Assembly: GCF_008017535.1 (NCBI RefSeq)
Contig: NZ_VRUA01000002.1
Location: forward strand, 186,001-250,000
DNA: 64,000 nucleotides
Source of the DNA: Ottowia flava
Lineage (GTDB): Bacteria; Pseudomonadota; Gammaproteobacteria; Burkholderiales; Burkholderiaceae_C
Reading direction: 5' to 3'
Position numbers and translations under genes: made by a program. Of this stretch, positions 5,181 through 63,770 are shown one piece after another; the first letter of the stretch is position 1; each line of letters starts with the position of its first letter. The notes under the pieces were generated by a model that was given only the letters and a program-made list of their open reading frames with translations, was not told the origin of the DNA and made no database searches.

Positions 5181-5245
5181 AAAATAACATCAAAATTGGC
5201 CTCAAGCCCTACAACCACCTACGCGAGCAGCTATACAAATCATAG
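5181..5245 (-). repeat. 60-bp dispersed repeat, copy A (intergenic)
   Basis: Read on the minus strand this stretch gives ATAGCTGCTCGCGTAGG, then GTTGTAGGGCTTGAGGCC, then an A/T-rich tail. It lies between the glycosyltransferase operon and gspE, upstream of the chosen gspE start. Confidence 0.8.
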
Positions 5246-5255
5246 TCTGTTTTGC

Positions 5256-6209
5256 CTATTTCCACAGCAGCCAGCGGCTCAGGCGGTCCAACTCGGGCCC
5301 GACATAATACGTTCTGTAGGTGAACAGGCGCGCCAGCCGCCCCCGACCGCGCCAGGCCAGGTACTCAGCCACGTATCCATCGTCCAGCCCGTTGTCGCGC
5401 AAGCGGCGCCCCAGCGCCTCGGCCTGCGCCCGCGTGCCGCGCCCCAGCTGGCGCACCCGTTTCAGCACCCCGCCGCCGTCGCGTGCCAAGCGCATCAGCC
5501 GGCTGGGAAGGCCGCGGTCGCGCGCACCGATCTGATTGCGCCCGTGCTGGCGGTACCGCATCAGCGGCTCGGGCAGGTAGTCGCGCGCGCCGCTGCCACT
5601 CAGCACCGCCAGCCACCAGTCGTGCATGACGGCGTCGGGCGGCAGGGGCAGCGCCAGCTCCAGCAGGGCGCGGTTGATCAGCGTGGCGCAGCCGGTGACC
5701 TGGTTGACGCTGAGCAGCGTGCGCGCATTGACCTGTGCCGGTTCGATGCGCTGAAAGGCGGCGAAGGACGGGCTGATGACCTGCAGCTGCTCGTCCACCA
5801 CCGTCAGGTCGCTGTGCGCCAGACAGGGCGCGTCAGTGCCCACGCGCGCTTCCAGCGCCTGCACAGCGGCCAGCAGGCGCGCGGTCTTTTCGGGCAACCA
5901 GACGTCGTCCTGGTCGCAAAAGGCGATCCAGGCGGCGCTGCCGTCGTCCAGGCTGGCGCGCATCAGGCGCTCGAAATTGCGGATCACGCCGCCACCCTTG
6001 GGTTGTGGCGGCAACAGCAGCATGCGTCCCTCAAAAATACGTTCGTAGCGCCGCAGGATGGCCAGGGTGTCGTCGGACGAGCCGTCGTCGCTGACGATCA
6101 GGCGGAAGTTCGCGTGCGTCTGCGCCAGCAGCGAATCCAGCTGCGGCGCCAGGAAGGCGGCGCCGTTGTAGGTGGCCAGCAGGATGTCGACCAGGGGCGC
6201 GGCGCTCAT
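5256..6209 (-). CDS. Family 2 glycosyltransferase (rhamnosyltransferase-like)
   Basis: GT-A fold glycosyltransferase of 317 residues. The N-terminus DILLATYNGAAFLAPQLDSL, the SDDGSSDDT motif near residue 45 and FCDQDDVW near residue 96 are typical of family 2 enzymes that use dTDP-rhamnose or similar donors. The ATG at 6209 overlaps the preceding gene as ATGA. It is the last gene of the rfbBDAC operon, so transfer of rhamnose onto a surface polysaccharide is a reasonable inference; donor and acceptor are not shown by the sequence. Confidence 0.85.
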   Translation of the reverse strand: MSAAPLVDILLATYNGAAFLAPQLDSLLAQTHANFRLIVSDDGSSDDTLAILRRYERIFEGRMLLLPPQPKGGGVIRNFERLMRASLDDGSAAWIAFCDQDDVWLPEKTARLLAAVQALEARVGTDAPCLAHSDLTVVDEQLQVISPSFAAFQRIEPAQVNARTLLSVNQVTGCATLINRALLELALPLPPDAVMHDWWLAVLSGSGARDYLPEPLMRYRQHGRNQIGARDRGLPSRLMRLARDGGGVLKRVRQLGRGTRAQAEALGRRLRDNGLDDGYVAEYLAWRGRGRLARLFTYRTYYVGPELDRLSRWLLWK

Positions 6210-7965: not shown

Positions 7966-7967
7966 GG

Positions 7968-8873: not shown

Positions 8874-9772
8874 AGGATTTCCTTGAGCATGCGGTCCACG
8901 CCCTGCTGCCACGGCGGCAGGGTGAGGCCGAACACGGCTTGCAGGCGCGTGGTGTCCAGGCGCGAATTGTGCGGGCGCCGTGCGGGTGTCGGGAAGGTGT
9001 CGCTGGCGACGGGCTCCACCTCTTTTACTACCAATTCAGGAGCTGCCTGCGCAGATCTGTATTGGCCAAACACGTGATTGGCGTACGAAAACCAGGTCGT
9101 GTAACCGGCCGCCGCCAAATGGTAAGTACCGCCGTCTTCCGGCCGCGCCAGGCACTGGCGCAGGGTGTGGGCGGTGATGTCGGCGATCAGCTCTGCCCCC
9201 GTGGGTGCGCCCCACTGGTCGTCGACGATGGTGAGGCGCTCGCGCTCGGCCGCCAAGCGCAGCATGGTGCGGGCAAAGTTGCCGCCGCGCGCCGCGTAGA
9301 CCCAGCTGGTGCGAAAGATCAGATGGCGACAGCCGCTGGCGCGGATGGCTTCTTCGCCGGCCAGCTTGGTCGCGCCGTAAACGCTGAGCGGGCCGGTGGC
9401 GTCGCCCTCGCGCCAGGGCGTGTCGCCGCCGCCGTTGAACACGTAGTCGGTGCTGTAGTGGACCAGCAGCGCACCCACCTCGGCCGCGGCCTGCGCCAGC
9501 GCGGCGGGCGCCTCGGCGTTCAGGCGCCGGGCCAACGCCGGCTCGCTCTCGGCTCGGTCGACCGCCGTGTGGGCGGCGGCGTTGACGATGGCCGCAGGGC
9601 GCAGTGCGCACACCGTGGCCGCCAGCGCGTCCGGGTCGTTCAGGTCGCCGTGCAAGGCGCCTTGGCCGTGGCGGTCCAGCGCCGTGAGCGGGCCGAGCGG
9701 CGCCAGCGCGCGCTGCAGTTCCCAGCCGACCTGGCCGTTCTTGCCCAGCAGGAGGATGCCGTGGCCCGCCAT
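8870..9772 (-). CDS. rfbD: dTDP-4-dehydrorhamnose reductase
   Basis: RmlD, the final NAD(P)H-dependent step to dTDP-L-rhamnose, 300 residues. The Rossmann motif [13 protein letters not shown] is at residues 7-19; [11 protein letters not shown] and YGATKLAGE (Tyr/Lys catalytic pair) follow, then [14 protein letters not shown]. Near residues 231-250 the segment [12 protein letters not shown] is encoded by an in-frame copy of the 60-bp dispersed repeat. It lies between rfbB (3 nt gap) and rfbA (overlap). Confidence 0.94.
9021..9080 (+). repeat. 60-bp dispersed repeat, copy B (inside rfbD)
   Basis: The plus strand reads AATTCAGGAGCTGCCTGCGC followed by AGATCTGTATTGGCC. It lies wholly within rfbD, which reads it on the opposite strand without a stop or frame change, as SAQAAPEL. 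Confidence 0.75.
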
Positions 9773-14355: not shown

Positions 14356-14420
14356 CGTATTTTTTAAGCCAAATCGGCCTCTGACCCTAGAGCAGATTGC
14401 GCGATCAGCTACTGAATTTC
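14356..14420 (-). repeat. 60-bp dispersed repeat, copy C (intergenic)
   Basis: The minus strand reads AAATTCAGTAGCTGATCGCG, CTCTAGGGTC and AGGCCGATTTGGCTTAAAAA. This is one of the most complete copies and defines the 3' half of the consensus. Confidence 0.85.
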
Positions 14421-14481
14421 TAGCAGCCCTGCGAATACAGGACGCTCGCTGGCACACGCAATGCGTCGGCGCGCAGCGCGC

Positions 14482-15609
14482 TCAACGCGTCGTCTTGTCG
14501 TCCTGACCCGCCTGCGCCGTCGCCGTCTCCAGCGCCCGCAGTTGGGCCAGCCGCTCGGCTTTGGGCAGCTTGCCCAGCGCCGCGACGGCGGCGTGAAAGC
14601 GCGGCCAGTCGCTGCCTTCTCGCACAAACAGGGCTTCGAAGGCCGGCACCAGTTCGTCGTACGCGGCCTGCACGCCGAAAAAGGCGTTGTTGGCCTCGGC
14701 CACCCAGCGGTCGTAGCCGTCGTAGGGCGTGCCGGCCGCGGCCCAACGCGCTTTCAGGTCGGCGTAGCGTTGGCGAAAGCGCGCCACTGCTTCTTCTTTC
14801 ATAGCTGCCAGCACAGTTGTATCAATGCCTGGCGCCCCTTTTTGCTTGTAAACCGCGTTCAGGTCGTCGCGCGTCAGCCGGCTCAGCGCACGGAAGTCGC
14901 GCCGGCGCTGGTCGAAGGCGGCGTACTCGCGCCGAGCCGCCTCGCTGGCGTGCGTGGCCAGCCAGCGCTGGCCGCCCAGACGCTCCACGGCCGTGGCGTA
15001 CGACTCGTTGAACATGGTGTCGTCGTCCACGTACACGACCTGGTGCGCCAGCTCGTGAAAGATCATCCGCGCCAGCTCGCCCTCGGGGTAGCGGATGAAG
15101 GTGGAGAGCAGCGGGTCGCCCCCCATCCAGTTCAGCCAGCCCAGCGTGGAATAGGCCGGGATGCCGTACACGCGCACTTCCAGCCCCTCGTCGCGCTGCA
15201 GCTGCTCGGCCAGCGCGCGCGCCTCGGCTTCGTCGTAGTAACCGCGGTAACCCACGCAGCCGACCACCGGAAAGCACCAGCGCTTGAGCGTCAGCGAATC
15301 CGGCGGCGCCGCCGCCACGTTCCACACCGCCGCGCGGCGCTTCAGGTCGCTGTAGCGGTGGTAGCTGGCGTTGTCGGGCAGCGCCAGATCCGTGACTGCG
15401 AAGGCGCGGATGCGCTTGGCCAGTTCCAGCCGCTGGCGCAAGTCATCCGGCGTCGCCGGGTCGGCCAGCACTTCTTCCACCGGCTTGGCCGCGCCCATCA
15501 GCGCCAGGTGGCCCTGGATGGATTGGGCGTAGTAGCTGGCGGCGGTGCAGCCGGAGAGCAGCCAGGCGCCAGCCACGGCCAACAGCACCCAGGCCGCGCG
15601 CCGCTTCAT
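14482..15609 (-). CDS. Secreted DUF2265-type putative aminopeptidase (lipoprotein)
   Basis: Putative zinc peptidase of 375 residues. The N-terminus MKRRAAWVLLAVAGAWLLSGC is a lipoprotein signal with lipobox LSGC, so it is probably membrane-anchored outside the cytoplasm. The HExxH motif appears as FHELAHQVVYVDDDTMFNESYAT, with a downstream Glu that could be the third ligand. This fits the bacterial DUF2265 'putative aminopeptidase' family. The start overlaps the stop of the upstream molybdopterin oxidoreductase as ATGA. A degenerate copy of the dispersed repeat encodes GIDTTVLAAMKEEA. Confidence 0.8.
   Translation of the reverse strand: MKRRAAWVLLAVAGAWLLSGCTAASYYAQSIQGHLALMGAAKPVEEVLADPATPDDLRQRLELAKRIRAFAVTDLALPDNASYHRYSDLKRRAAVWNVAAAPPDSLTLKRWCFPVVGCVGYRGYYDEAEARALAEQLQRDEGLEVRVYGIPAYSTLGWLNWMGGDPLLSTFIRYPEGELARMIFHELAHQVVYVDDDTMFNESYATAVERLGGQRWLATHASEAARREYAAFDQRRRDFRALSRLTRDDLNAVYKQKGAPGIDTTVLAAMKEEAVARFRQRYADLKARWAAAGTPYDGYDRWVAEANNAFFGVQAAYDELVPAFEALFVREGSDWPRFHAAVAALGKLPKAERLAQLRALETATAQAGQDDKTTR
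14788..14840 (+). repeat. 60-bp dispersed repeat, copy D (inside peptidase gene)
   Basis: The plus strand reads TGCTTCTTCTTTCATAGCTG followed by CCAGCACAGTTGTATC. It is partly degenerate but shares the 5' half of the consensus, and it is read through in frame by the minus-strand peptidase gene. Confidence 0.5.
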
Positions 15610-17636
15610 GCTGGCGCCCGCTCCACCTGCACCGCACAGTCGTAAAACGTCGGCCCACGGCCCATGTCGGTCAGCTTCTGGCTGGTGACTTCGTTGACGT
15701 TGGTGCCGGCCAGGCCGAACTTGCGCCACCAGATGCCCAGGCCGTTGACGACGCCGGGGCGGGCGCGGGTGCTGACGTCGGCCTTGACGCGGTAGTCGCC
15801 GCGGGCGTTGAAGACGCGCACCACGGCGCCGGAGGTAATGCCGCGGGTGGCGGCGTCATCGGGGTGGATTTCAAGCAGCGGCTCGCCTTCGATGCTGCGC
15901 AGGCTTTGCACGTTGACGAAGCTGCTGTTGAGGAAGTTGCGCGCCGGCGGCGAAATCATGGCCAGCGGGTAGTCGGGCGAGGCGCCGGCGGGCTCGTGGT
16001 TGGGGATGAAATCGGGCACGTCAGGCCCGCCAGACGTGCGCAGGCCGCTATCAAATTGGCACTTGCCCGATGCGGTGGGAAAGCCGCCTTCGGCGTACGG
16101 CGCATCGGGAATCGCCAGCGCGGCAAAGCCGTTTTGCAGCAGCGCGTTGAAGTCGATCTGTTTGCCGTAGGCCTGGCGGCACAGGGCTTCGTCGCTGTCG
16201 GCAAAGCACGGGGCGTCCAAGCCCATGCGCGCGGCCAGGTCGCGGAAGATCTGGGCGTTGCTGCGCGCTTCGCCCATGGGCGCGATGGCCGGGCGGTTGA
16301 GCAGCACGTCGGTGTGGCCATAGGCCAGGTGGATGTCCCAGTGCTCCAGTTGCGTGGTGGCGGGCAGGACGATGTCGGCGTGGTCGGCCGTGTCGGTCAG
16401 GAAATGCTCCAGCACGACGGTGAACAGGTCTTCGCGCTGGAAGGCGCGCACCACCTTGGGCGATTCGGGCGCGACGGCGACGGGGTTGCTGTTGTAGACC
16501 ACCAGCGCCTCGACCTTGGGGCCGAAGTCGGCCGACGCTTCGCGCAGCAGATCGTCGCCGATGGTGACCATGTTGATGGTGCGCGGCGTGCGCCCGGCCA
16601 GCAGGTCGGGCCGCTGCAGCGTGGCGCGGTCGACCGGGAACTGGCTGGAGCTGGACAGCAGCACGCCGCCCGCGCGGTGGCGCCAGGCGCCGGTGAGCGC
16701 CGGCAGGCAGGCGATGGCGCGGATGGCGTTGCCGCCGCCCGCGCAGCGCTGCACGCCGTAGTTGACGCGGATGGCGGCCGGTGTGGTGGTGCCATAGTCG
16801 CGCGCCAATTGCACGATTTGCGCCGCTGGCACGCCACAGGCCTGCGCGGCCCGCTTCGGATTCCATAGCATGGCGCGCGCTTTCAGCGCTTCCCAGCCGA
16901 CCGTGTGGCGGGCGATGTAGTCGTGGTCCAGCCAGTCGTGCACGATCAGCTCGTGCATGATGGCCAGCGCGAGCGCGGCGTCGGTGCCCGGCAGCAGGGC
17001 GATGTGCTCGTCGCACTTGTCGGCCGTTTCGCTGCGGCGCGGGTCGATGCAGACCAGGCGCGCTCCGTCGCGGCGCGCCTGCTGCGCCAGGCGCCAGAAG
17101 TGCAGATTGCTGCCGATCGAGTTGCTGCCCCAGATCAGGATCAGCCGGCTTTCGGCGAAGAATTCGACCTTCATGCCGACCTTGCCGCCCAGCGTGCGGG
17201 TCACGGCCTCGCCGCCGGCGGTGGCGCAGATGGTGCGGTCCAGCAGGCTGGCGCCCAGCTGGTGGAAGAAGCGCCGGTCCATCGATTCCCCTTGCACCAG
17301 GCCCATGGTGCCGGCGTAGCTGTAGGGCAGGATGGCCTGCGGGTCACGCGCGGCGATGGCGCCCAGGCGCTGGGCGATCTCGTCCAGGGCGGCGTCCCAG
17401 GTGATGGGCTCGAACCGGCCTTCGCCCTTGGCGCCGACGCGCCTGAGAGGCGTCAGCACCCGTTCCGGATGGTTGGTCCTTTCGGCGTACTTCGACACTT
17501 TGGCGCACAGCACGCCGTCGGTCGACGGGTGCGCCGGGTTGCCACGCACCCGGACGGCGCGGCCATCCTCGACGGTGGTCACCAGGCTGCAGGTGTCGGG
17601 GCAATCGTGGGGGCAGGCGCCAACCACCTCAGCCAT
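15606..17636 (-). CDS. Molybdopterin-dependent oxidoreductase (BisC/DMSO reductase superfamily)
   Basis: Large oxidoreductase of 676 residues from the ATG at 17636 (a GTG at 17645 is an alternative). An N-terminal [4Fe-4S] motif CPHDCPDTC with a later Cys (GVLCAKVSKYAERTNHPERV) is clear. The molybdopterin domain has GSNSIGSNLHFW and IDPRRSETA, and the C-terminal dinucleotide-binding domain has a barrel near LLEIHPDDAATRGI. There is no signal peptide, so it is probably cytoplasmic. Subtype and substrate cannot be assigned. It is translationally coupled to the downstream lipoprotein peptidase. Confidence 0.88.
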   Translation of the reverse strand: MAEVVGACPHDCPDTCSLVTTVEDGRAVRVRGNPAHPSTDGVLCAKVSKYAERTNHPERVLTPLRRVGAKGEGRFEPITWDAALDEIAQRLGAIAARDPQAILPYSYAGTMGLVQGESMDRRFFHQLGASLLDRTICATAGGEAVTRTLGGKVGMKVEFFAESRLILIWGSNSIGSNLHFWRLAQQARRDGARLVCIDPRRSETADKCDEHIALLPGTDAALALAIMHELIVHDWLDHDYIARHTVGWEALKARAMLWNPKRAAQACGVPAAQIVQLARDYGTTTPAAIRVNYGVQRCAGGGNAIRAIACLPALTGAWRHRAGGVLLSSSSQFPVDRATLQRPDLLAGRTPRTINMVTIGDDLLREASADFGPKVEALVVYNSNPVAVAPESPKVVRAFQREDLFTVVLEHFLTDTADHADIVLPATTQLEHWDIHLAYGHTDVLLNRPAIAPMGEARSNAQIFRDLAARMGLDAPCFADSDEALCRQAYGKQIDFNALLQNGFAALAIPDAPYAEGGFPTASGKCQFDSGLRTSGGPDVPDFIPNHEPAGASPDYPLAMISPPARNFLNSSFVNVQSLRSIEGEPLLEIHPDDAATRGITSGAVVRVFNARGDYRVKADVSTRARPGVVNGLGIWWRKFGLAGTNVNEVTSQKLTDMGRGPTFYDCAVQVERAPA

Positions 17637-19075: not shown

Positions 19076-19081
19076 CAGCCA

Positions 19082-19150
19082 AGAAATGCATAAGAATCGG
19101 CTCCCGGCCCTACAACCACTTGCGCGGGCAGCTTCTTTTTCAATAGCAGT
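19082..19150 (-). repeat. 60-bp dispersed repeat, copy E (intergenic)
   Basis: The minus strand reads AAGCTGCCCGCGCAAGTGGT, then TGTAGGGCCGGGAGCCGATT. It sits between the orphan receptor gene and the M20 amidohydrolase gene. Confidence 0.8.
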
Positions 19151-19227
19151 CTGCACCTTGGTTGCTGTGGCTGGGGTCTTCACCCGGGACCGCCCACGTC
19201 GGCACCATGCACGCTAGACTGCGGTGC

Positions 19228-20931: not shown

Positions 20932-22034
20932 TCCCGATTCCCGCCGCGTTTTCGTCCAGCTACGCCCAGGCCCGCGTTAAATTTCTGGAAGCCGCCGCCA
21001 CCGACGGCCTGCGCATCGAATCCTTCAACCACCCCCTGCCCGGCCGCGACGGCGAACAGCTGGCGATGGACATCGCGCTGGACGGCAGCCCGGACGCCGA
21101 GCGCCTGCTGATCGTCAGCAGCGCCTGCCACGGTGTGGAAGGCTACTGCGGCAGCGGCGTGCAGGTGTTTGCGCTGCGCGACGACGAGTGGCGCGCCAAG
21201 GCCCGCGATGCCGGCGTGGCCGTGCTGTACATCCACGCGCTCAACCCGTACGGGTTCTCGCACGTGCGCCGCGTCACCCAGGAAAACGTCGACCTGAACC
21301 GCAACTTCCACGATTTCAGCCAGCCGCTGCCCGTCAATGAAGCCTACCGCCAGGTGCACGCGCTCCTGTTGCCGGAAACCTGGCCGCCCGACGACGCGAA
21401 CCGCGCTGCGGTGCAGAGCTACATCGAAACCAAAGGCCTGGGTGCCTGGCAGGCCGCCATCTCCAGCGGGCAATACGAATACCCCGATGGCCTGTTCTTC
21501 GGCGGCACCGCGCCCACCTGGAGCCACCAGACCCTGCGCCAGGTGTTGGCGAAGTACGCCAGCCGCGCCAGCGACATCGCCTGGATCGACCTGCACACGG
21601 GCCTCGGCCCCAACGGGGTGGGCGAGCCGATCTACGCCGGCGCCGACGACGCCGACACCGTGGCCCGCGCGCGCCGCTGGTGGGGCGAGCACGTCACGTC
21701 GATCTACGACGGCACATCGACCAGCCCGCTGCTGCGCGGCCTGATGTGGAACGCGATCTACGACGCCGCGCCGAACGCCCGCTACACGGGCATTGCCATG
21801 GAATACGGCACGGTGCCGGTGCCGGAAGTCATGGACGCTCTGCGCGGCGATCACTGGCTGGCGCAGCACCCTGAAGCCCCGGCCGAGCTGGCCGCGCAGA
21901 TCAAGGCGCGGCTGATGGCGGCGTTCTGCACGGACACCGATGCGTGGAAGGGCCAGATCATCAGCCAGGCGCGGCAGGCGATGTTTCAGGCGGTGGATGG
22001 GATGGCGGGCGCTGGGGATCCGGCGGCGGCTTAA
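20928..22034 (+). CDS. DUF2817 / M14-like zinc carboxypeptidase-fold protein
   Basis: A 368-residue protein of the DUF2817 family, related to M14 carboxypeptidases. Likely zinc-site residues are in SSACHGVEGYCGSG and AWIDLHTGLGPNG; HALNPYGFSHVRRV and ENVDLNRNFHDFS are the conserved family blocks. There is no signal peptide. The start is a GTG overlapping the VOC gene stop. Its TAA stop falls at the edge of repeat copy F. It may act on peptides or N-acyl amino acids together with the upstream amidohydrolase; this is inference from position. Confidence 0.82.
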   Translation: MIPIPAAFSSSYAQARVKFLEAAATDGLRIESFNHPLPGRDGEQLAMDIALDGSPDAERLLIVSSACHGVEGYCGSGVQVFALRDDEWRAKARDAGVAVLYIHALNPYGFSHVRRVTQENVDLNRNFHDFSQPLPVNEAYRQVHALLLPETWPPDDANRAAVQSYIETKGLGAWQAAISSGQYEYPDGLFFGGTAPTWSHQTLRQVLAKYASRASDIAWIDLHTGLGPNGVGEPIYAGADDADTVARARRWWGEHVTSIYDGTSTSPLLRGLMWNAIYDAAPNARYTGIAMEYGTVPVPEVMDALRGDHWLAQHPEAPAELAAQIKARLMAAFCTDTDAWKGQIISQARQAMFQAVDGMAGAGDPAAA

Positions 22035-22098
22035 CTTTTTGGGCTTATCGGGCGCTGGCCTTACGGGGGATCGCGCGGGCAGCTATTGAATTTGCAGT
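22034..22098 (-). repeat. 60-bp dispersed repeat, copy F (intergenic)
   Basis: The minus strand reads AAATTCAATAGCTGCCCGCG, then diverges in the middle (CCCCCGTAAGGCC) and ends in an A-rich tail. It directly abuts the stop codon of the DUF2817 gene. Confidence 0.75.
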
Positions 22099-22133
22099 TT
22101 TCGTGCTTGTTCGACGTTGGTGTTTGAACGACG

Positions 22134-22789: not shown

Positions 22790-22858
22790 AATTGACTACA
22801 AATTCAGTAGCTCCTCACGCCAATGTCTATAGGGTAAAACGGCAAAATCACTTAAATC
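22790..22858 (+). repeat. 60-bp dispersed repeat, copy G (intergenic)
   Basis: The plus strand reads AATTCAGTAGCTCCTCACGC, then GTCTATAGGGT and AAAATCACTTAAAT. It lies between the inverted-repeat island and coaX. Confidence 0.65.
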
Positions 22859-22879
22859 CCGCGCGCTCCGCGCACCCAT

Positions 22880-23776: not shown

Positions 23777-24259
23777 ATGGGATTGTTCAGTTTCATCAAG
23801 GAAGCCGGTGAGAAGCTCTTCGGCGGCAAAGAAGTCGAACAGGCAGCAACCTCCAGCGCGCCCAATCTGGCCGAGCTGAACGCCAAGGCCGGCGACGCGA
23901 TCAAGACGTACATCGAAAAGCAGAACCTGGGCCTGTCCGGCCTGACCGTGGCTTTTGACGGCGCCACCGGCAAGGTCACCCTGGGCGGCAGCGCCCCCAG
24001 CCAGGAAGCCGCTGAGAAGGCCGGCCTGTCTGCCGGCAACGTGGCCAGCGTGAGCGATGTCGACAACAACCTGCAGTACCCCGCCGGTACCGCTTCGCAG
24101 TACCACGACGTGGTGAGCGGCGACACGCTGTCCGCCATCTCCAAGAAGTACTATGGCGACGCTAACAAGTACAACGTGATCTTCGAAGCCAACAAGCCGA
24201 TGCTGTCGGACCCGAACAAGATCTACCCCGGTCAGAAGCTGCGCATCCCGGCGCTCTGA
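23777..24259 (+). CDS. kbp: BON-LysM potassium-binding protein Kbp
   Basis: A 160-residue homologue of E. coli Kbp (YgaU), a cytoplasmic K+-binding protein made of a BON and a LysM domain. The N-terminus MGLFSFIKEAGEKLFGG is nearly family-invariant; the BON domain spans roughly residues 30-105 (SVSDVDNNLQ) and LysM 110-158 (YHDVVSGDTLSAISKKYYGD, NKPMLSDPNKIYPGQKLRIP). ATG 23777 is preferred over 23771 because AGGAG sits 7 nt before it. A strong terminator follows. Confidence 0.93.
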   Translation: MGLFSFIKEAGEKLFGGKEVEQAATSSAPNLAELNAKAGDAIKTYIEKQNLGLSGLTVAFDGATGKVTLGGSAPSQEAAEKAGLSAGNVASVSDVDNNLQYPAGTASQYHDVVSGDTLSAISKKYYGDANKYNVIFEANKPMLSDPNKIYPGQKLRIPAL

Positions 24260-24310
24260 TTTGCATAGCTGCCTGCGCAGACCCATGTAGGGTTTCGCAG
24301 GCTTTATGCG
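24258..24310 (+). repeat. 60-bp dispersed repeat, copy H (intergenic)
   Basis: The plus strand reads TTGCATAGCTGCCTGCGCAG, then ACCCATGTAGGGTTTCGCAGG. It begins at the kbp stop codon and ends just before the kbp terminator. Confidence 0.8.
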
Positions 24311-24312
24311 AG

Positions 24313-24337
24313 AAAAGGCACCTTCGGGTGCCTTTTT
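24313..24337 (+). terminator. Rho-independent terminator after kbp
   Basis: AAAAGGCACC and GGTGCCTTTT form a perfect 10-bp stem with a TTCG tetraloop, and the stem's 3' side runs into a T-tract. Confidence 0.9.
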
Positions 24338-24404: not shown

Positions 24405-25883
24405 ATGAACGCCGCCGCCCCCGCTTCGCCGTCCGCTGCCCCTGACGCCCCCGACGCCATCACTGCGCTGGACGCCACGGCGCTGTCGGAAGCGATCCAC
24501 GCGCGCCAGCTGTCGTGCCGCGAGGTGATGCAGGCCTACCTGGCGCGCATCCACCGCCTCAACCCGACCTACAACGCCCTGGTGTCGCTGCGCCCTGACG
24601 ACGCGCTGCTGGCCGAGGCCGACGCTTGCGACGCCGAGCTGGCGCGCGGCCAATCGCGCGGCTGGATGCACGGCCTGCCACAGGCGATCAAGGACCTGGC
24701 CAACGTGGCGGGCCTGCCCACCACGTTGGGCTCGCCGCTGATGAAGGACTTCGTCGCGCAGGAAGACGGGCTGATGGCCGCGCGCATGAAAGCGGCCGGC
24801 TGCATCGTCATCGGCAAGAGCAACACGCCCGAATTCGGCCTGGGCTCGCATACCTTCAACGAGGTGTTTGGCGCCACGCGCAACGCCTATTCGCCCAGCA
24901 AGACGGCCGGCGGCAGCAGCGGCGGCGCGGCCGTGGCGCTGGCGCTGCGCCTGCTGCCGGTAGCCGACGGCTCGGACTTCATGGGCAGTTTGCGCAACCC
25001 CGCGGCCTGGGCCAACGGCTTTGGCCTGCGACCCAGCCAGGGCCGCGTGCCCATGGTGCCGGCGCTGGACGTGTGGGTGTCCCAACTGGGCACCGAGGGG
25101 CCAATGGGCCGCAGCGTGCGCGACGTCGCGAAGCTGTTGGAAACACAGGCCGGCTGGTCGCAAAGCGCTCCTTTATCGATAGCTGGTCGCGCAGACTCCT
25201 CTAGGGCCGGCGACGCATTGGACGTCAAAGCCCAGCGCATCGGCTGGCTTGGCAACCTGAACGGCTACCTGCCGATGGAAGACGGTATCCTGGCGCGCTG
25301 TGAAGACGGCTTGCAGCGCCTGCAACACCAGGGCTGCGCAGTCGAACCGGCCACGCTGGGCATGGCGCCGGAACGGGTGTGGATGGCCTGGCTGGTCTGG
25401 CGCCGCGTGCTGGTGGCGTCGCGCGTGGCGCCGTTCTTGCTGAAGGCCGGCAACCGCACGCTGATCAAGCCCGAAGCGCTGTGGGAGCACGACCAGGCCC
25501 AAGGCTGCAGCGCAGCCGAATTCCTGTCGGCCAGCGTGACGCGCACCCAGTTCTACCAAAGCATGCTGGCGCTGTTCGAGCAGTACGACTTTTTGGCGCT
25601 GCCGACCACGCAGGTCTGGCCGTTCGACGTGACCGAGCGCTGGCCGCAGTCGATCGCCGGCCGCCCCATGGACACCTACCACCGCTGGATGGAGGTCGTC
25701 ATCTACGCCACCTTCGCCGGCCTGCCCTGTATCAGCGTGCCGGTGGGCTTCAGCCCCGACGGCCTGCCCATGGGCATGCAGCTGATCGGCCCCCCGCAGG
25801 ACGACGCCGGCGTGCTGCGCCTGGCGGCGGCGTACGAAGCGGTGATCGGCGATTGGCTGGGGCGGTTGCCGGGCGTGGGCTGA
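24405..25883 (+). CDS. Amidase (amidase signature family)
   Basis: Amidase of 492 residues from ATG 24405. The Ser-cisSer-Lys core is visible: Lys in GLPQAIKDLANVAGLP (near residue 91), KTAGGSSGGAAVALALRLLP near 166, and DGSDFMGSLRNPAAW with the nucleophile region. The C-terminal part has FAGLPCISVPVGFSPDGLPMGMQLIGPP. The substrate cannot be told. Around residues 254-275 (PLSIAGRADSSRAGDALD) the DNA is a clear in-frame copy of the dispersed repeat, in a surface-linker position between core blocks. Confidence 0.92.
   Translation: MNAAAPASPSAAPDAPDAITALDATALSEAIHARQLSCREVMQAYLARIHRLNPTYNALVSLRPDDALLAEADACDAELARGQSRGWMHGLPQAIKDLANVAGLPTTLGSPLMKDFVAQEDGLMAARMKAAGCIVIGKSNTPEFGLGSHTFNEVFGATRNAYSPSKTAGGSSGGAAVALALRLLPVADGSDFMGSLRNPAAWANGFGLRPSQGRVPMVPALDVWVSQLGTEGPMGRSVRDVAKLLETQAGWSQSAPLSIAGRADSSRAGDALDVKAQRIGWLGNLNGYLPMEDGILARCEDGLQRLQHQGCAVEPATLGMAPERVWMAWLVWRRVLVASRVAPFLLKAGNRTLIKPEALWEHDQAQGCSAAEFLSASVTRTQFYQSMLALFEQYDFLALPTTQVWPFDVTERWPQSIAGRPMDTYHRWMEVVIYATFAGLPCISVPVGFSPDGLPMGMQLIGPPQDDAGVLRLAAAYEAVIGDWLGRLPGVG
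25165..25230 (+). repeat. 60-bp dispersed repeat, copy I (inside amidase gene)
   Basis: The plus strand reads TATCGATAGCTGGTCGCGCA, then GACTCCTCTAGGGCCGGCGA. The amidase reads it as SIAGRADSSRAG, the open frame in this orientation. Confidence 0.8.
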
Positions 25884-25956
25884 CCTGAAGGCGCCGCGGC
25901 GGCGCACGATTGCGATGCTGAGCGTGACGGGTCTCACGCAAAAGCACCCATGAAAA

Positions 25957-26025
25957 CGCTATGAATTCAGAAGCTATCCGCGCAAGTGGTTCTAAGGCCG
26001 ACGCCAGAATTCTTCACAAAAACGG
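25957..26025 (+). repeat. 60-bp dispersed repeat, copy J (intergenic)
   Basis: The plus strand reads GCTATGAATTCAGAAGCTAT, CCGCGCAAGTGGTTCTAAGG and then AGAATTCTTCACAAAAA. It lies between the amidase gene and the convergent persulfide dioxygenase gene. Confidence 0.75.
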
Positions 26026-27914: not shown

Positions 27915-28757
27915 ATGACCAAAAAAAGCAACAACCCCACCGGCAGTCCGGCATTAGCCTGGACGGTTCCGGTCGGCGGCGCCCGTTTTTCCTTGCAAAA
28001 ACTGTCGCCCGGCGACAAGCCTTTTTCAATCGGCAACAAGACCGAGGACAAAAGCCGCATCACCGAACTGGCGCAGGAAATCGACGCGCTGCAGGACATT
28101 TTCTGGGCCGACAAGCGATTCAAGTTGCTGGTGCTGTTGCAGGGCACCGACACGGCCGGCAAGGACGGGACGATCCGCGCGGTGTTCAAGGAAACCAGCC
28201 CGCTGGGCGTGCGCACGCACGGCTGGAAAGCGCCGACCGAACTGGAGCGCAGCCACGACTTCCTCTGGCGCATTCACCAGCAGGTGCCAGCGGCGGGCGA
28301 ATTCATGATCCACAACCGCAGCCACTACGAGGACGTGCTGGTGCCAGTGGTCGAGGGCTTCATCGACGCCGCCGGCACCGCCCAGCGCTACCGGCAGATC
28401 AACGATTTCGAACGCCTGTTGTGCGAAACCGGCACGGTGGTCATGAAATTCATGCTGCACATCAGCTTCGACGAACAGCGCGAGCGCCTGCAGGCGCGCA
28501 TCGACGACCCCACCAAGAACTGGAAGTTCAGTGAGGGCGACCTGGAAGTGCGGACGCAGTGGAAGGCCTACCAGAAGGCCTACGACGACCTGCTGCGCGC
28601 CACCTCCACCGAATGGGCGCCCTGGACCGTGGTGCCGGCCGACAGCAAGACCCACCGCAACTTGATGATCGCCACCCTGGTGCGCGACAAGCTGCGGTCG
28701 CTGCAGTTGCGCTATCCGCCGGCAGACCCCGAGCTGAAAGGGCTTCATATCCAATAG
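27915..28757 (+). CDS. Polyphosphate kinase 2 family protein
   Basis: PPK2-type enzyme of 280 residues that transfers phosphate between polyphosphate and nucleotides. The Walker A region LLVLLQGTDTAGKDGTIRAV is near residue 74, followed by a lid-like segment PTELERSHDFLWRIHQQVP, and NRSHYEDVLVPVVEG. NDFERLLCETGTVVMKFMLHIS and EWAPWTVVPADSKTHRNL complete the family pattern. The ATG at 27915 is preceded by GTGGA. Whether it is of class I (ADP) or III (AMP/ADP) is not decided. It is divergent from the CsoR-like gene across a 286-bp gap. Confidence 0.9.
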   Translation: MTKKSNNPTGSPALAWTVPVGGARFSLQKLSPGDKPFSIGNKTEDKSRITELAQEIDALQDIFWADKRFKLLVLLQGTDTAGKDGTIRAVFKETSPLGVRTHGWKAPTELERSHDFLWRIHQQVPAAGEFMIHNRSHYEDVLVPVVEGFIDAAGTAQRYRQINDFERLLCETGTVVMKFMLHISFDEQRERLQARIDDPTKNWKFSEGDLEVRTQWKAYQKAYDDLLRATSTEWAPWTVVPADSKTHRNLMIATLVRDKLRSLQLRYPPADPELKGLHIQ

Positions 28758-28770
28758 GGGGCAGCGCAAG

Positions 28771-28808
28771 CAGCTCCTTATTCGATAGCAATCTGCTTGA
28801 CGAAAGCA
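28771..28808 (+). repeat. Degenerate short repeat, copy K (intergenic)
   Basis: AGCTCCTTATTCGATAGCAA followed by TCTGCTTG shares only the 5' part of the dispersed repeat consensus. It may be a decayed copy. Confidence 0.35.
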
Positions 28809-34256: not shown

Positions 34257-34258
34257 GA

Positions 34259-34325
34259 AACTCCTGATTCAATAGCTGGTCGCGCAGGTGGTTGTAGGGC
34301 TGGAGGCACAAATCACTTGAAATCC
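34259..34325 (+). repeat. 60-bp dispersed repeat, copy L (intergenic)
   Basis: The plus strand reads TGATTCAATAGCTGGTCGCG, then CAGGTGGTTGTAGGGCTGGA and CACAAATCACTTGAAAT. It lies directly upstream of the fetA start. Confidence 0.85.
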
Positions 34326-44830: not shown

Positions 44831-44832
44831 GG

Positions 44833-44897
44833 ATGCTCTTAATTGAGTAGCTGGTTGCGCAGGTAGTTGTAGGGCTGCAACCTGATTTCTCTTAAAT
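44833..44897 (+). repeat. 60-bp dispersed repeat, copy M (between thiolase and FadJ-like genes)
   Basis: The plus strand reads TGCTCTTAATTGAGTAGCTG, GTTGCGCAGGTAGTTGTAGG and CTGATTTCTCTTAAATT. The thiolase TAA stop at 44892-44894 lies within the CTTAAA end of the repeat. Confidence 0.85.
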
Positions 44898-46097
44898 TCT
44901 CTCAACGATGGTGGCAATGCCCATGCCACCGCCCACGCACAGCGTGGCCAGGCCGTAGCGCAGCTGGCGGCGGTGCAGCTCGTCGATCAGCGTGCTGAGG
45001 ATCATGGCGCCCGTGGCGCCCAGCGGGTGGCCCATGGCAATGGCGCCGCCGTTGACGTTGACCTTCTCGTGCGGCACGCCAAATTCCTTCATGAACTTCA
45101 TCGGCACGGCGGCAAACGCCTCGTTCACTTCGAACAGGTCGATCTGGTCGATCGTCATGCCCGCCTTGGCCAGCGCCTTGCGCGTGGCGGGCATCGGGCC
45201 GGTGAGCATGATGGTCGGGTCGGCGCCCGACAGCGCCGTGGCGACGATGCGCGCGCGCGGCGTGAAGCCGTGCGCCTTGGCCGCGGCCTCGCTGCCGATC
45301 AGCATCGCCGCGGCGCCGTCGACGATGCCCGACGAGTTGCCGGCGTGGTGCACGTGGTCAATGCGCTCGACCTGCGGATAGCGGCCCAGCGCCACGGCGT
45401 CAAAGCCCAGCGCACCCAGCTGCGCGAACGAAGGCTTCAATCCGCCCAGTGCCTCCACCGTGGTGCGTGGTTTGATGAACTCGTCGGCGTCCAGAATGGT
45501 CTGGCCCAGCCAGTCTTTCACCGGTACGACCGAGCCGGAGAAGTAGCCACTGTCGCGCGCCTTGGCCGCGCGCTGCTGCGACACCACGGCAAAGCCGTCC
45601 ACGTCTTCGCGCGAAAAGCCTTCCATGGTGGCGATCAAATCGGCGCCCACGCCTTGTGGCACGAAGTCGGTCGCCATGTTGGTGGCCGGGTCCTGCGCCC
45701 AGGCCCCGCCGTCGGCGCCGATGGGCACGCGGCTCATGCTTTCCACCCCGCCAGCGACCACCAGATCTTCCCAGCCGGAGCGCACTTTCTGCGCGGCCAG
45801 GTTCACGGCCTCCAGGCCCGACGCGCAGAACCGGTTGATCTGCACCCCGGCGCACTGCCAGTCCCAGCCTGCCTTGAGCGCCGCGACCTTGGCGATCACC
45901 GAGCCCTGTTCGCCGATGGGCGACACCACGCCCATGACCACATCGTCCACCACCGCCGTGTCGAAATCGTGGCGCGTGCGCAAGGCCTCTAGCGTGCCCG
46001 CGAGCAGGTCGACGGGTTTGACCTCATGCAGGCTGCCGTCCTTCTTGCCTTTGCCGCGGGGGGTGCGCACGGCGTCAAACACATAGGCTTCGCTCAT
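44892..46097 (-). CDS. Acetyl-CoA C-acyltransferase (thiolase)
   Basis: Thiolase of 401 residues, FadA/FadI-like. The acyl-binding Cys is in [17 protein letters not shown] (near residue 92), then [19 protein letters not shown] with the catalytic His and [15 protein letters not shown] with the second Cys. It completes the beta-oxidation pair with the FadJ-like gene downstream. Its stop codon is supplied by repeat copy M. It is divergent from livH across a gap with palindromic operators. Confidence 0.94.
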
Positions 46098-49142: not shown

Positions 49143-49957
49143 CAAATGCTATGACTTCAGTAGCTGCCTGCGCAGACCCATCTAGGGCAGAAGCCCTATT
49201 GAAGCTGCAAAACATCGAAAGCGCCTACGGCCCGATCAAGGCCATTCGCGGCGTGAGTCTGCAGGTGCGACAAGGCGAGATCGCCACCGTCCTCGGCAGC
49301 AACGGTGCCGGCAAGACGACGATCTTGAAGACCATCTCCGGCATCATCGATCCGCGCAAGGGCTCGGTGAACTTCCAGGGTCAGGACATCACCGCGCGCG
49401 ACCCGGCCCGCATCGTGCAGCTTGGCCTCAGCCACGTGCCGGAAGGCCGCGAGGTCTTTCCGCTGCTCTCCGTGCGCGACAACCTGCTGATGGGTGCGTA
49501 CACACGGCGCGACCGCGACGGCGTGGCGCGCGACATCGAGCAGGTGTTCCAGTACTTCCCGATCCTGCGCGAGCGGGCTGGCCAGGATGCCGGCCTGCTC
49601 TCCGGTGGCCAGCAGCAGATGCTGGCCATCAGCCGCGCGCTGATGGCCGAACCCGCGCTGATCCTGCTGGACGAGCCCAGCCTGGGCCTGTCGCCCAAGC
49701 TGACCAAGGAAATCTTCGAGATCGTGGTGCGCATCAACCGCGAGCGCGGCACCACCATCCTGTTGGTGGAGCAAAACGCCAACATGGCACTGAACGCGGC
49801 CGACTACGGCTACGTGCTGGAGAACGGGCGCATCGTGATGGAAGACCGGTGCGATCGCCTGCGCGAGAAGGACGACATCAAGGAGTTCTACCTCGGCATG
49901 AAGGACGCCGGCGTGCGCGGCGAGCGGCGCTGGAAAAAGAAGAAGACCTGGAGGTAG
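49139..49957 (+). CDS. livF: Liv-type ABC transporter ATPase LivF with repeat-derived N-terminus
   Basis: Second ATPase, 272 residues. Walker A TVLGSNGAGKTTILKTI is near residue 55, signature LLSGGQQQMLAISRALM, Walker B LILLDEPSLGLSP, switch LLVEQNANMAL. The ATG at 49139 overlaps the livG stop. Most LivF proteins begin near LKLQNIESAYGPIKAIRGVS; here a 20-residue extension (TSVAACADPSRAEAL) is encoded by repeat copy N. A TTG at 49198 could be a minimal alternative start. Confidence 0.92.
   Translation: MTNAMTSVAACADPSRAEALLKLQNIESAYGPIKAIRGVSLQVRQGEIATVLGSNGAGKTTILKTISGIIDPRKGSVNFQGQDITARDPARIVQLGLSHVPEGREVFPLLSVRDNLLMGAYTRRDRDGVARDIEQVFQYFPILRERAGQDAGLLSGGQQQMLAISRALMAEPALILLDEPSLGLSPKLTKEIFEIVVRINRERGTTILLVEQNANMALNAADYGYVLENGRIVMEDRCDRLREKDDIKEFYLGMKDAGVRGERRWKKKKTWR
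49147..49205 (+). repeat. 60-bp dispersed repeat, copy N (start of livF)
   Basis: The plus strand reads GCTATGACTTCAGTAGCTGC, then CTGCGCAGACCCATCTAGGG. It is translated in the same open frame as the amidase copy (SVAACADPSRA versus SIAGRADSSRA). Confidence 0.85.
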
Positions 49958-57255: not shown

Positions 57256-57327
57256 GTCTCCGTCCTTGTGTTGCGCGCCGTGTGGCGCGTGAAGTGTTAG
57301 GTACGCTGCGGGGTGGCATCAAGCTTG

Positions 57328-57393
57328 ATGCTCTTGTTTTTCTAGCTATCCGCGCATATCCCTCTAGGGCTCAAAGGCTTTTTGATTCAAATC
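57328..57393 (+). repeat. 60-bp dispersed repeat, copy O (intergenic)
   Basis: The plus strand reads TGCTCTTGTTTTTCTAGCTA, TCCGCGCATATCCCTCTAGG and CTTTTTGATTCAAAT. The acyl-CoA dehydrogenase stop codon (57387-57389) lies in its 3' end. Confidence 0.8.
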
Positions 57394-58624
57394 CTCCACT
57401 GGCGCGCCGCCAGCTCGCGCATGATCTCGTCGGTGCCACCGCCGATGGTCAGCACCTTCACCTCGCGGTAGATGCGCTCGCACACCGTGCCGCGCATGTA
57501 ACCCATGCCGCCCGAAATCTGCACACCCGCATCGGCGCAGAACGCCATGGCCTGCGTCGCGTGGTTCTTGAGCACGCAGACCTCGCCCACCCAGTCGGCA
57601 CCGGTGTCGCCGCCGTCCGCGCGCGCGGCCAATTGCTCCAGCCAGGCTTCGGTGGACCGGATGCGCTGTTGCATGTCGATCAGCCGGTGGCGCACCACCT
57701 GGTGCTGTGTGAGCGTCACGCCGAAAGTCTGGCGTTCGCGTGCCCAGGCCAGCGCTTCGTCGTAGCAGGCCTGCGCAAAGCCCAGCGCCGCACAGGCGAT
57801 GCCGAAGCGCTCGCCATTGAAGTTGCCCATGATGGCCTTGAAGCCCGCGCCTTCCTCGCCCAGCAGGTAGCGCGCCGGCACGCGCACGCCGTCAAAGCGC
57901 AGGTGCGCCGTGTCGGAACAGAGCCAGCCCATCTTGTCCAGGCGGGTGCGGCTGAGGCCGGCGCTGTCGCCCGGCACCAGGAGCAGGGAGATGCCGCCCG
58001 CGCCGTGGGTGCCGGCGTCCCCGCCGCTGCCGCCGGGCCGCCCCAAGGCAGCGGCAGCCCCCTTGGGGGGCAGCGCACCATGCGCAGCAGGGAGCGTGGG
58101 GGCGGGTGTCCGCACGGCCACGGTGATCCAGTCGGCGCGCATGCCCGAGGTGATGAACACCTTTTCGCCATCGATGACGTACTCGTCGCCCTCGCGCCGC
58201 GCGCGGGTGCGCAGCGCCGCCACGTCAGAGCCACCGCCGGGCTCGGTGATCGCCAGTGCGGCGATGCGCTCGCCCGCGAGCACCGGCGCAATCACTTCCT
58301 GCTTGACGGCATCGCTGCCCAGCGCCAGCACAGGCGGCAGTCCGATGTTGTGGGACAGCAGGCTGGCCAGCACGCCGCCGCTGGCGCCGTACCGGCACAA
58401 CGGCACCCACAGACTGAGGCGCATCCGGTGTGACGCTGGCGTGCCGCCATAGGCTTCGGGGTAGCCCAGGCCGAGCAAACCCAGATCGGCCGCCTCGCGG
58501 TACAGCGCGCGCGGAAACTCGCCGGCCGCGTCCCACGCCGTGACGTGCGGCGCGATGCGCTCGCGCGCAAAACGCGCCACCGTGTCGGCCAGCAGCGCGC
58601 GCTCTGCGGCTGTGGCGTCGGCGT

Positions 58625-58628: not shown

Positions 58629-60592
<1,964 letters not shown>

Positions 60593-60604: not shown

Positions 60605-60682
60605 GTAAAAAAAATTGGAATGAAATCGCCCCGCGGCGCTGGTGCCATTTGCGCAGGCAGCTGCAAATTTCGGAGCAATAAA
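60605..60682 (-). repeat. 60-bp dispersed repeat, copy Q (intergenic)
   Basis: The minus strand reads TGCTCCGAAATTTGCAGCTG, CCTGCGCAAATGG, and ends with GGCGATTTCATTCC plus a run of T. It lies just upstream of the carboxylase alpha start. The segment 60658-60677 is identical over 20 bases to a stretch inside gspF. Confidence 0.75.
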
Positions 60683-60912: not shown

Positions 60913-60914
60913 GC

Positions 60915-62084: not shown

Positions 62085-62126
62085 GGGTGTCTCCTCGGAT
62101 TTTTGGCTCTCGAACCGACGGGCGCG

Positions 62127-63770
62127 TCACATGCGCGCCACGCCGAACTGCATGGGCCGAACTTCGCGCGCCGCGCCTTCGGCGATCGTGTCCAGGCAAA
62201 AACGCAGCACGGCGCGCGTGTCGCGCGGGTCGATCACGCCGTCGTCCAGCAACAGGCCGCTGGTGTAGAAGGCGTCGGCCTGCGCTTCGAACATGGCGAC
62301 GATCTGCTCGTACTGCGCTTGCGATTCGGCCGGGTCGGGCGTCAGGCCTTTGCGCGCCAGGCCGGCCTCGGTCACGATCTGCATGGTGCGGGCGGCCTGC
62401 TCGCCGCCCATCACCGCGGTCTTGGCGCCGGGCCAGCTGAACAGGAAGCGCGGTGCGTAGCCGCGTCCGCACATGCCGTAGTTGCCCGCCCCAAAGCTGG
62501 CGCCGCACTGGATGGTGAGCTGCGGCACCGTGGCGTTGGTCACCGCCTGGATCATCTTGCTGCCGTGCTTGATCATCCCGCCCTGTTCGCTGTCCTTGCC
62601 GACCATGTAGCCGGTGGTGTTTTGCAGGTAGACGATGGGGTGCCCGAGCTGGCACATCCATTGGATGAAGTGCGTGGCCTTGTTGGCGCCCGCCACGTCG
62701 ATCGGCCCGTTGTTGCTGATGATGCCGACGCGGTGACCGCCGATGCGGGCCTGCACGCACAGCGTAGGCGCGCCGTACAGCGGCTTGAATTCCAGCAGGT
62801 CGGAACCATCCACGATGCGCGCCATCACCTCGCGCATGTCGACCGGCTCGCGGTGGTGCGGCGGCATCAGGCCGAGCAGATCGTCGGCGCCGAAGTGCGG
62901 CTCCAATGCTTCTGAATTCATAGCTGCCCGCGCAGATGTATCTAGCGCCACAGGCCGATTCGACTCAGAAAACCCGCGGATGACGGCGCGCGCCATGCCC
63001 AGCGCCTGCCGGTCGTTCTCGGCCAGGTATTCGCCCAGGCCCGACACGCCGGTGTGCATCTCGGCGCCGCCCAGCTCTTCTTCGGTAGCGATTTCACCCG
63101 TCGCCGCTTTCAGCAAGGGCGGGCCAGCGAGGAAGGCGCGCGAGCGGCCGCGCACCATGATCACGATGTCAGACAGGCCCGGCATGTACGCACCGCCCGC
63201 CGTGCCCGAACCGTGCTGCACCGTGACCACCGGCAGCCCCGCCGCCGAATGCCGCGCCAGGTTGCGGAACAGCGAGCCGCCGTGCACGAAGCCTTCGACG
63301 CGGTAGCGCATCAGGTTGGCGCCCGCGCTTTCAACCAGGTGGATGAAGGGCAGGCGGTTTTGCAGTGCGATCTCCTGCACGCGCAGGATCTTGTCGAGCC
63401 CGCGCTCCTGGATCGCGCCGGCCTCGATGCCCGAGTCGCTCGCCACCACCATGCAGCGCACGCCTTCGATGAAGCCGATGCCCGCCAGCATGCCGCCGCC
63501 CGGCACCGATTTGGCCGGGTCGCGCCGATCCTGCAGGTAGCCGGCCAGCGTGCACAGCGGCAGCCACGGCGCACCCGGGTCGAGCAGCAGCGCGACGCGC
63601 TCGCGCGGCAGCAGTTGCCCGCGTTTGTCGAACTGCGGCTTGGCGCGCGCTGACGCATCGGCCGCGCGCGCTTCAAGCGCACGCCAGGCAGCGATGCGCT
63701 CCAGCGTGGCGGCGCGGCGCGCCTGGGCCTGCTCGCCCTGGGAATTCCAATGGGAAGAGAACACGCTCAT
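62127..63770 (-). CDS. Acyl-CoA carboxylase carboxyltransferase (beta) subunit
   Basis: Carboxyltransferase of 547 residues, MccB/AtuC type. N-domain: RGQLLPRERVALLLDPGAPW, HLVESAGANLMRYRVEGFVH, VQHGSGTAGGAYMPGLSDIV. C-domain: REVMARIVDGSDLLEFKPLY, NNGPIDVAGANKATHFIQWM, GASFGAGNYGMCGRGYAPRF. The linker between the two halves includes ALDTSARAAMNSEALE, translated from repeat copy R. It works with the alpha subunit encoded downstream. The start overlaps the partial SDR gene as ATGA. Confidence 0.93.
   Translation of the reverse strand: MSVFSSHWNSQGEQAQARRAATLERIAAWRALEARAADASARAKPQFDKRGQLLPRERVALLLDPGAPWLPLCTLAGYLQDRRDPAKSVPGGGMLAGIGFIEGVRCMVVASDSGIEAGAIQERGLDKILRVQEIALQNRLPFIHLVESAGANLMRYRVEGFVHGGSLFRNLARHSAAGLPVVTVQHGSGTAGGAYMPGLSDIVIMVRGRSRAFLAGPPLLKAATGEIATEEELGGAEMHTGVSGLGEYLAENDRQALGMARAVIRGFSESNRPVALDTSARAAMNSEALEPHFGADDLLGLMPPHHREPVDMREVMARIVDGSDLLEFKPLYGAPTLCVQARIGGHRVGIISNNGPIDVAGANKATHFIQWMCQLGHPIVYLQNTTGYMVGKDSEQGGMIKHGSKMIQAVTNATVPQLTIQCGASFGAGNYGMCGRGYAPRFLFSWPGAKTAVMGGEQAARTMQIVTEAGLARKGLTPDPAESQAQYEQIVAMFEAQADAFYTSGLLLDDGVIDPRDTRAVLRFCLDTIAEGAAREVRPMQFGVARM
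62906..62973 (+). repeat. 60-bp dispersed repeat, copy R (inside carboxyltransferase gene)
   Basis: The plus strand reads TGCTTCTGAATTCATAGCTG, CCCGCGCAGATGTATCTAGC and AGGCCGATTCGACTCAGAAA. It is a near-complete copy, and the minus-strand gene reads all of it without a stop. Confidence 0.85.

Follow-up and report, generated by a model that had tools for sequence, protein, structure and literature searches.

DNA uptake signals have been described for two bacterial families, the Pasteurellaceae with their uptake signal sequences (USS) and the Neisseriaceae with their DNA uptake sequences (DUS), the former with a core of 9 bp and the latter 10-12 bp long (PMC1626085, PMC3630211). As far as the available parts of these sources describe them, both are free of orientation bias, somewhat more regularly spaced than random and favour non-coding DNA while being common in genes (PMC1626085), which hold 65% of the USS of H. 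influenzae (PMC1626085, PMC3630211); the USS consensus is unusually strong and its copies are not insertions (PMC1626085). HIP1 (highly iterated palindrome 1) of cyanobacteria is likewise very abundant, and it is patchy, having been replaced or lost in some lineages (PMC4390886). Coevolution has been analysed for USS and ComN (PMC12616744). Among Comamonadaceae, V. eiseniae is reported to bind DNA selectively and to be transformed efficiently in a manner dependent on type IV pili, and A. temperans to be transformed only by DNA of its own species, an own-DNA preference whose sequence specificity was left to future work in that 2014 study, the available part of which names no signal (PMC4212676). 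Here, we describe in Ottowia flava, starting from a stretch of 64,000 nucleotides (hereafter the window; contig NZ_VRUA01000002.1, positions 186,001 to 250,000), a dispersed motif of about 60 bp for which a genome-wide uptake-type DNA recognition sequence, written in dialects, is on our analysis probably the best explanation (rough probability 0.55).

A dispersed family of tripartite motifs

A profile built from the copies in the window was run over the window and a further 400 kb of the genome, taken from contig C1 (464 kb in total), the control being reversed DNA searched with the same profile or, for string patterns, the reversed pattern. The window yields 20 copies (E <= 7.8e-6), its reversed form at best a match at E = 1.6, and the 464 kb yield 145 copies at E < 0.01, with 0 in reversed DNA. 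The single dispersed family proposed by a sequence-only reading of this DNA is therefore real, its estimate of about 18 copies giving way to 20, and its density of one copy per 3.2 kb extrapolates to some 1,300 in the 4.12-Mb genome. A 15-mer, ATAGCTGCYYGCGCA, has 168 matches in that genome (90 forward and 78 reverse) and its reversed pattern 0. That reading could put no name to the family, and none came to light in the literature either: in titles and abstract openings of a non-exhaustive, open-licence set of papers no such repeat or uptake sequence is named in Comamonadaceae, and of six names looked up in each of two surveys of repetitive extragenic palindromic (REP) sequences none is present.

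The motif is about 64 bp long with a consensus near TGCTATnAATTtnATAGCTGCCtGCGCAGATGGttgTAGGGCtgGAGGCCgATTTgaCTnnAAA and is tripartite over some 60 bp, with a GCTAT-AATT-TAGCTG block, GCGC with a genome-specific middle and a GGCC-ATTT-AAA block. GCT, TAGCTG and GCGC are nearly invariant while certain adjacent columns are almost random, part of this unevenness arising because the copies were found by profile searching. A common consensus was thus rightly recognised at the outset, but not the exact shared strings, since the quoted 20-mer has a single window match within 3 mismatches; nor does CTGCGCAG, then taken for a hallmark, define the family, because it alone occurs 11 times with 5.6 expected. 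Pairwise identity among 103 intergenic copies (those of at least 18 bits out of 106, used for the column-shuffle and fold tests) has a mean of 36.5 of 65 and a maximum of 52, which is reached in 7 of 200 column shuffles; the copies largely resemble sequences sampled independently from a weight matrix, and no pair among the 103 is near-identical.

Both orientations are well represented. The window holds 12 copies on the plus and 8 on the minus strand, not 13 of 18 facing the same way as first counted, and there is no strong strand bias overall (90/78 for the 15-mer; pattern matches forward/reverse 256/238 in relative G314 and 232/247 in relative G438), though the 400 kb of C1 carry 74 plus- and 51 minus-strand copies. 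Spacing is rather regular, with a coefficient of variation of 0.82 and only 1.1% of 5000 uniform placements as even, to which a preference for gene gaps may contribute. By a purpose-written gene caller covering 78-86% of the DNA, 106 of the 145 copies are intergenic and 39 genic; copies against available gaps of at least 70 bp number 34 vs 45 for convergent, 58 vs 136 for tandem and 14 vs 57 for divergent gaps, so that convergent gaps are richest and divergent ones poorest. The earlier split of the window copies into 12 intergenic and 6 genic holds for the former but becomes 8 for the latter, two of them weak, and the idea that copies are tolerated inside genes is borne out. In several genera (L072:4349, L079:13209, L092:13190 and L087:13179), and in similar cases in C1, a copy of the motif comes after a reverse-complemented start codon, and the GCTCC end of such copies could serve as ribosome-binding site for the opposite-strand gene. 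The window copies, all from the profile search, are as follows (G numbers denote genomes of relatives).

5184..5249, minus strand: intergenic, 38.7 bits; G438 and G314 also have a copy at this site
9025..9096, plus strand: in the rmlD-type gene 8870-9772 (minus-strand gene)
14356..14428, minus strand: intergenic, 52.4 bits; the same gap of G438, G314 and G521 carries copies
14786..14859, plus strand: in gene 14482-15609 (minus-strand gene)
15994..16062, minus strand: weak, doubtful copy in the molybdopterin oxidoreductase gene 15606-17549, 21.5 bits, outside the preferred codon frame
16805..16871, minus strand: weak, doubtful copy in the same gene 15606-17549, 30.2 bits, outside the preferred frame
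19079..19153, minus strand: intergenic; in this gap the G314 and G521 copies face the opposite way and orientations differ among four genomes
22031..22101, minus strand: left end of a 620-bp inverted repeat
22793..22866, plus strand: right end of the 620-bp inverted repeat
24250..24316, plus strand: starts at the stop codon of gene 23771-24259; no copy in G521, partial in G602
25162..25237, plus strand: in the amidase gene 24405-25883, read in frame
25955..26024, plus strand: intergenic
28730..28795, minus strand: intergenic
34255..34329, plus strand: intergenic, top-scoring copy of the window (54.6 bits)
44831..44904, plus strand: between thiolase and FadJ-type genes; kept in seven aligned genus genomes (O. 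flava included) and in G314, absent from G614
49144..49211, plus strand: N-terminal extension of the LivF-type gene 49151-49957
57326..57398, plus strand: intergenic
58835..58906, plus strand: in the MccA-type carboxylase gene 58625-60592 (minus-strand gene), the key site for formation in place
60613..60679, minus strand: intergenic
62904..62978, plus strand: in the carboxyltransferase-type gene 62127-63770 (minus-strand gene)

Copies inside genes and their orthologous sites

The 39 genic copies lie on the strand of the gene (17) or on the opposite strand (22), an independence of orientation that suggests a function at the level of DNA rather than RNA. One codon frame per orientation is used by 33 of them (13/17 on the same strand and 20/22 antisense), as expected from selection against stops, since stop codons in the consensus close the other frames. 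Rare codons (<10% of synonyms) account for 252 of 555 codons in the 39 motif cores and for 1600 of 24727 elsewhere in these genes (Fisher p ~4e-138), hence the DNA sequence is kept at the cost of codon preference. On its own, this excess does not decide between origin in place and an old insertion, since both would show it.

Lengths between flanks (bp in O. flava/relative) were compared with three motif-poor members of the genus, a clean comparison being one in which the relative has no motif-like sequence at the site; G602 retains degraded motifs (6 profile matches at E < 0.01 in the stretches read), the stretches of G614 and G595 none. Clean spans are 78/78 at the RmlD site (G614), 78/78 (G614) and 89/83 (G595) at site 14786, 75/75 at the MccA site (G602), 80/92 at the amidase site (G602, motif-free there) and 85/88 (G602), 79/43 (G614) and 81/33 (G595) at the LivF site. 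Less clean spans, with G602 still motif-like, are 78/78 for RmlD, 74/74 for 14786 and 100/88 for 62904, and the two weak copies give 65/65 (16805..16871) and 60/62 (15994..16062) against the same genome. An extra 64 bp was found at no genic site compared, the differences from relatives ranging from 0 to 48 bp. Solved structures from the PDB were also compared for 7 of the 39 genic copies, picked as likely enzymes and named partly by our own labels: whereas insertion of a whole element would lengthen a protein by about 21 residues, the motif core differs by 0 residues in a DNA ligase (weak copy, 22.7 bits) and an RsmB-type protein, by 1 in HemD, by 1 at the end of a response-regulator domain and by 2 in RmlD.

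The MccA gene provides the most detailed view. Its 34 orthologue rows (31 distinct, three pairs being the same genome twice), gathered by tblastn at E <= 1e-20 among 43 loci and eight genus regions, are ungapped over 21 residues, and 9 of them carry the motif. The residues E-L-R/K-A-P-F-N-G are kept in 32 of the 34 rows, ELRA being encoded as GAATTAAGAGC in G314 and G521 and as GAGCTGCGCGC in motif-poor G602; the motif carriers use codons such as AGA and TTA, each only 0.2% of its synonyms in the O. flava genome, and two rows (L074 and L092) match the motif in part. A pair of BLAST flanks against G595 (298/712 bp) was left out since it joined distant flanks, the row alignment being ungapped there. 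A second motif-like site recurs in MccA genes of Acidovorax, Comamonas and relatives (e.g. L089:11374, L098:11520 and L088:6964).

Most comparable genic copies were thus formed in place on pre-existing coding sequence, the exceptions being LivF, DapE and an RlmD-type gene. The mobile insertion first envisaged is not supported by this: segments that are ancestral and conserved at protein level, the very outcome named beforehand as its refutation, are what most comparable genic sites show (RmlD, 14786, MccA, the ligase and the RsmB-type gene), and what the three exceptions do not.

Dialects, distribution and trans factors

Four genomes of the genus have flanking blocks that are alike and middles that are different, which read GCGCTTG-N5-CAAGCGC in G314, CCAGCGC-N11-GCGCC in G438 and GCGCAGATGGnTGTAGGGC in O. 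flava. The middle 24 bp assign a copy to its own genome in 118/145 cases for O. flava, 17/22 for G438 and 18/23 for G314 but fail for G521 (5/18), while flanks do so in 93/145, 5/22, 9/23 and 3/18, respectively; these dialects are therefore genome-specific in three of the four genomes, G521 being the exception. Across 36 pairs of orthologous sites, identity is 70% for flanks and 53% for middles, compared with 46-51% and 43-46% for unrelated copies between genomes, hence sites are inherited and their middles diverge faster.

The alternative of an RNA-structured element was dropped, as no meaningful consensus fold emerges: RNAalifold yields 2 base pairs (-0.7 kcal/mol) for the 103 intergenic copies, no pairs for 86 copies from four genomes and at most 2-3 pairs, under 1 kcal/mol, in any set folded, and Rfam has no match at gathering scores. 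The middle taken alone folds better than mononucleotide shuffles in G438 (-14.6 vs -10.9 kcal/mol), G314 (-11.6 vs -7.6) and G521 (-11.7 vs -8.8), and more weakly so in the window (-11.2 vs -10.0), which is why its dyad may matter at the DNA level in some dialects.

Across 300 genomes of the order, a 14-mer pattern is abundant only in the family of O. flava (249, 110, 30 and 14 matches in the top four of nine members), other families having 0-5 matches, about the level of the reversed-pattern control. Within the family, 179 of 299 genomes have one match or more; counts range from 0 to 494 and contrast strongly inside single genera; the 29 genomes of the genus span the same 0-494 (e.g. 312 in G593, 8 in G602 and 4 in G614), and named loci on Acidovorax, Comamonas and Ottowia contigs contain the motif. 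It is therefore common but patchy in Comamonadaceae, the family proposed at the outset for a search, and the other families sampled show background levels only.

Candidate trans factors were sought in 34 genomes, 17 motif-rich (94-494 pattern matches) and 17 motif-poor (0-17), and none of ComEC, GspH/FimT pilins, ComEA-type domains and Y1 transposases explains the patchiness in this set. Y1 matches occur in 16/17 motif-rich and 13/17 motif-poor genomes (one of the latter below cut-off) and motif-rich G593 has none; a REP mobilised by a REP-associated tyrosine transposase (RAYT) was rejected on this basis, the Y1_Tnp search of the O. flava genome and of the 34 genomes giving no association with the motif. 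Twenty Y1 matches in G314, several with identical scores and of full or half length, suggest an active IS200-like element there.

Outside chromosomes, three 50-kb stretches of two Comamonadaceae plasmids (two stretches picked for a BLAST match) contain 6 profile matches at 4 distinct places, and six Acidovorax contig loci around MccA 19 raw profile matches in 109 kb; this depletion goes in the direction that fits uptake signals, but the samples are unmatched and it is not used as evidence. Weak matches in 15 phage records include none in a phage of Comamonadaceae by organism name. An integron cassette (L115:753-1259, in a class 1 integron of an Achromobacter plasmid), annotated as DUF1010 and possibly of Comamonadaceae origin, carries the motif; since its Pfam match to PF06231 begins within the antisense translation of the motif, that protein family may in part represent translation of a DNA motif. 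The query weakly matches 1,760 plasmid records, and among the 30 matches listed most fall under DUF1010.

Proposed uptake-type recognition and its rivals

An uptake-type reading is favoured because USS and DUS are described by this same set of traits: family-wide abundance, origin by substitution, occurrence in both orientations, evenness of spacing, a preference for gaps, and dialects. Under our proposal, whose receptor, biased uptake and drive are inferred, (i) the tripartite motif of about 60 bp would be recognised by a DNA receptor on the cell surface, probably a minor type IV pilin, (ii) well-matching fragments would enter the cell and recombine more often, (iii) better matches would replace worse ones site by site, (iv) the motif would be built by point changes in gene gaps and permissive parts of genes, in either orientation and in whichever frame stays open, and (v) a change in receptor specificity or a loss of competence would let the whole set drift to a new dialect or decay. 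It is an even bet that Comamonadaceae are a third family with its own DNA uptake signal, of a new design with spaced blocks over about 60 bp and species-specific middles acting as 'mating dialects'. If so, the origin of uptake specificity and its role in isolating species could be studied in a third independent case, and a concrete candidate sequence with dialects makes the own-DNA preference of Comamonadaceae directly testable; even with another function, hundreds of in-place sites per genome show a strong DNA-level force on coding sequence.

Several observations weigh against this proposal. Among the genic sites, the LivF stretch exceeds its counterparts in G438 and G595 by 48 bp and that in G614 by 36 bp (it falls 3 bp short of the G602 one), and the motif core differs from solved structures by 8 residues in the RlmD-type protein and by 8-12 in DapE. 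Some intergenic copies sit in stretches longer than those of relatives and are a loose end: by 314-320 bp around 60613..60679 (G438, G602 and G595), by about 260 bp in the gap of 14356..14428 (G602 and G614) and by 60 bp at 57326..57398 (G595), where 579 bp of flank are unaligned, hence no clean empty site. The strand excess in C1 is one such point, as is the spread of pairwise identity, whose standard deviation of 4.87 vs 3.57 in shuffles is reached in 0 of 200 of them, which would follow from copies being unequally close to the consensus. A repeat of about 620 bp (window 22130-22760), consisting of a pair of inverted arms, each about 300 bp long, is present in 10 copies in the O. flava genome, the window one included, at 84-100% identity; the motif stands at 12 of 12 ends of the six copies read, 11 of them facing the same way, which would not be expected from uptake alone, and dozens of places match this repeat in G614, a genome with 4 pattern matches. 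ComEC and GspH/FimT pilins are found in 34/34 genomes, motif-rich and motif-poor alike, and a ComEA-type domain in 33/34, always scoring under the curated cut-off and for the most part in reading frames of about 800 residues that are perhaps not ComEA. Finally, the design departs from that of known signals, with about 60 bp in several blocks instead of a 9-12 bp core, a motif strong only in its core and otherwise of loose consensus, unlike that of USS, and 39/145 copies in genes instead of the 65% of H. influenzae USS (PMC1626085, PMC3630211, as far as their available parts go).

The main rival, unlikely on balance, is another chromosomal binding or processing site in the manner of HIP1, where the motif owes its formation and upkeep in place to a nucleoid protein or to a repair bias linked to methylation. 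It accounts equally well for in-place formation, orientation independence, change of dialect and loss from lineages, and HIP1 itself is patchy and replaceable (PMC4390886, available part), but HIP sequences are short palindromes with orphan methyltransferases, the blocks here span about 60 bp with spacing, and near-absence from a genus member (8 pattern matches in G602) would be hard to explain for an essential organising site. A non-autonomous mobile element, whether REP/RAYT-mobilised or a miniature inverted-repeat transposable element, that inserted widely and then decayed would fit the dispersed copies, the preference for convergent gaps, the motif-bearing ends of the 620-bp repeat and the longer intergenic stretches. 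It is nonetheless improbable, given compared genic copies free of whole-element insertion, no near-identical copies among 103, very uneven conservation along the motif, no conserved hairpin in the O. flava copies and Y1 transposases in motif-rich and motif-poor genomes alike (16/17 and 13/17) with none in rich G593.

Two further explanations were weighed. Overwriting of partly matching sites by abundant motif-bearing single-stranded DNA (retron-like, or by short-tract gene conversion), that is, concerted evolution without insertion, would explain genome-specific middles at orthologous sites of unchanged length; we hold it to be quite improbable, since no such donor came to light, none having been searched for, the unchanged ELRA residues of MccA argue for stepwise change under protein selection and partly matching MccA rows (L074 and L092) exist. 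In-frame insertion of the kind known from Rickettsia palindromic elements (RPE), adding peptides to proteins, could draw on the 33/39 genic copies read in one frame per orientation and on the LivF N-terminal extension, which is of variable length and carries the motif, but it is highly improbable: stop codons in the other frames would give the same frame preference, at most of the sites compared the protein has not been lengthened by the motif, and 106/145 copies are intergenic.

How, then, does the motif compare with known systems? It resembles RPE in that most genic copies are read in one frame, and differs from them in showing no insertion at most compared sites, in being mostly intergenic and in having no fold. 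Its dispersal in gaps and the GTAG of the O. flava dialect, GTAG being a REP tag, are reminiscent of REP/REPIN, from which, together with RAYT, it is set apart by having no conserved hairpin, no near-identical copies (n=103), no association with Y1 and, among the genic copies compared, no insertion of the element. With HIP1 it shares great abundance and replacement or loss in some lineages, but HIP1 is an 8-bp palindrome tied to methyltransferases (PMC4390886, available part) and the motif extends over about 60 bp. Unlike USS and DUS, it is very patchy within genera; like them, as depicted in the available parts of PMC1626085 and PMC3630211, it comes in hundreds to thousands of copies in both orientations, regularly spaced, preferring gaps while also present in genes, with an origin by substitution (shown for USS), restriction to a family and dialects.

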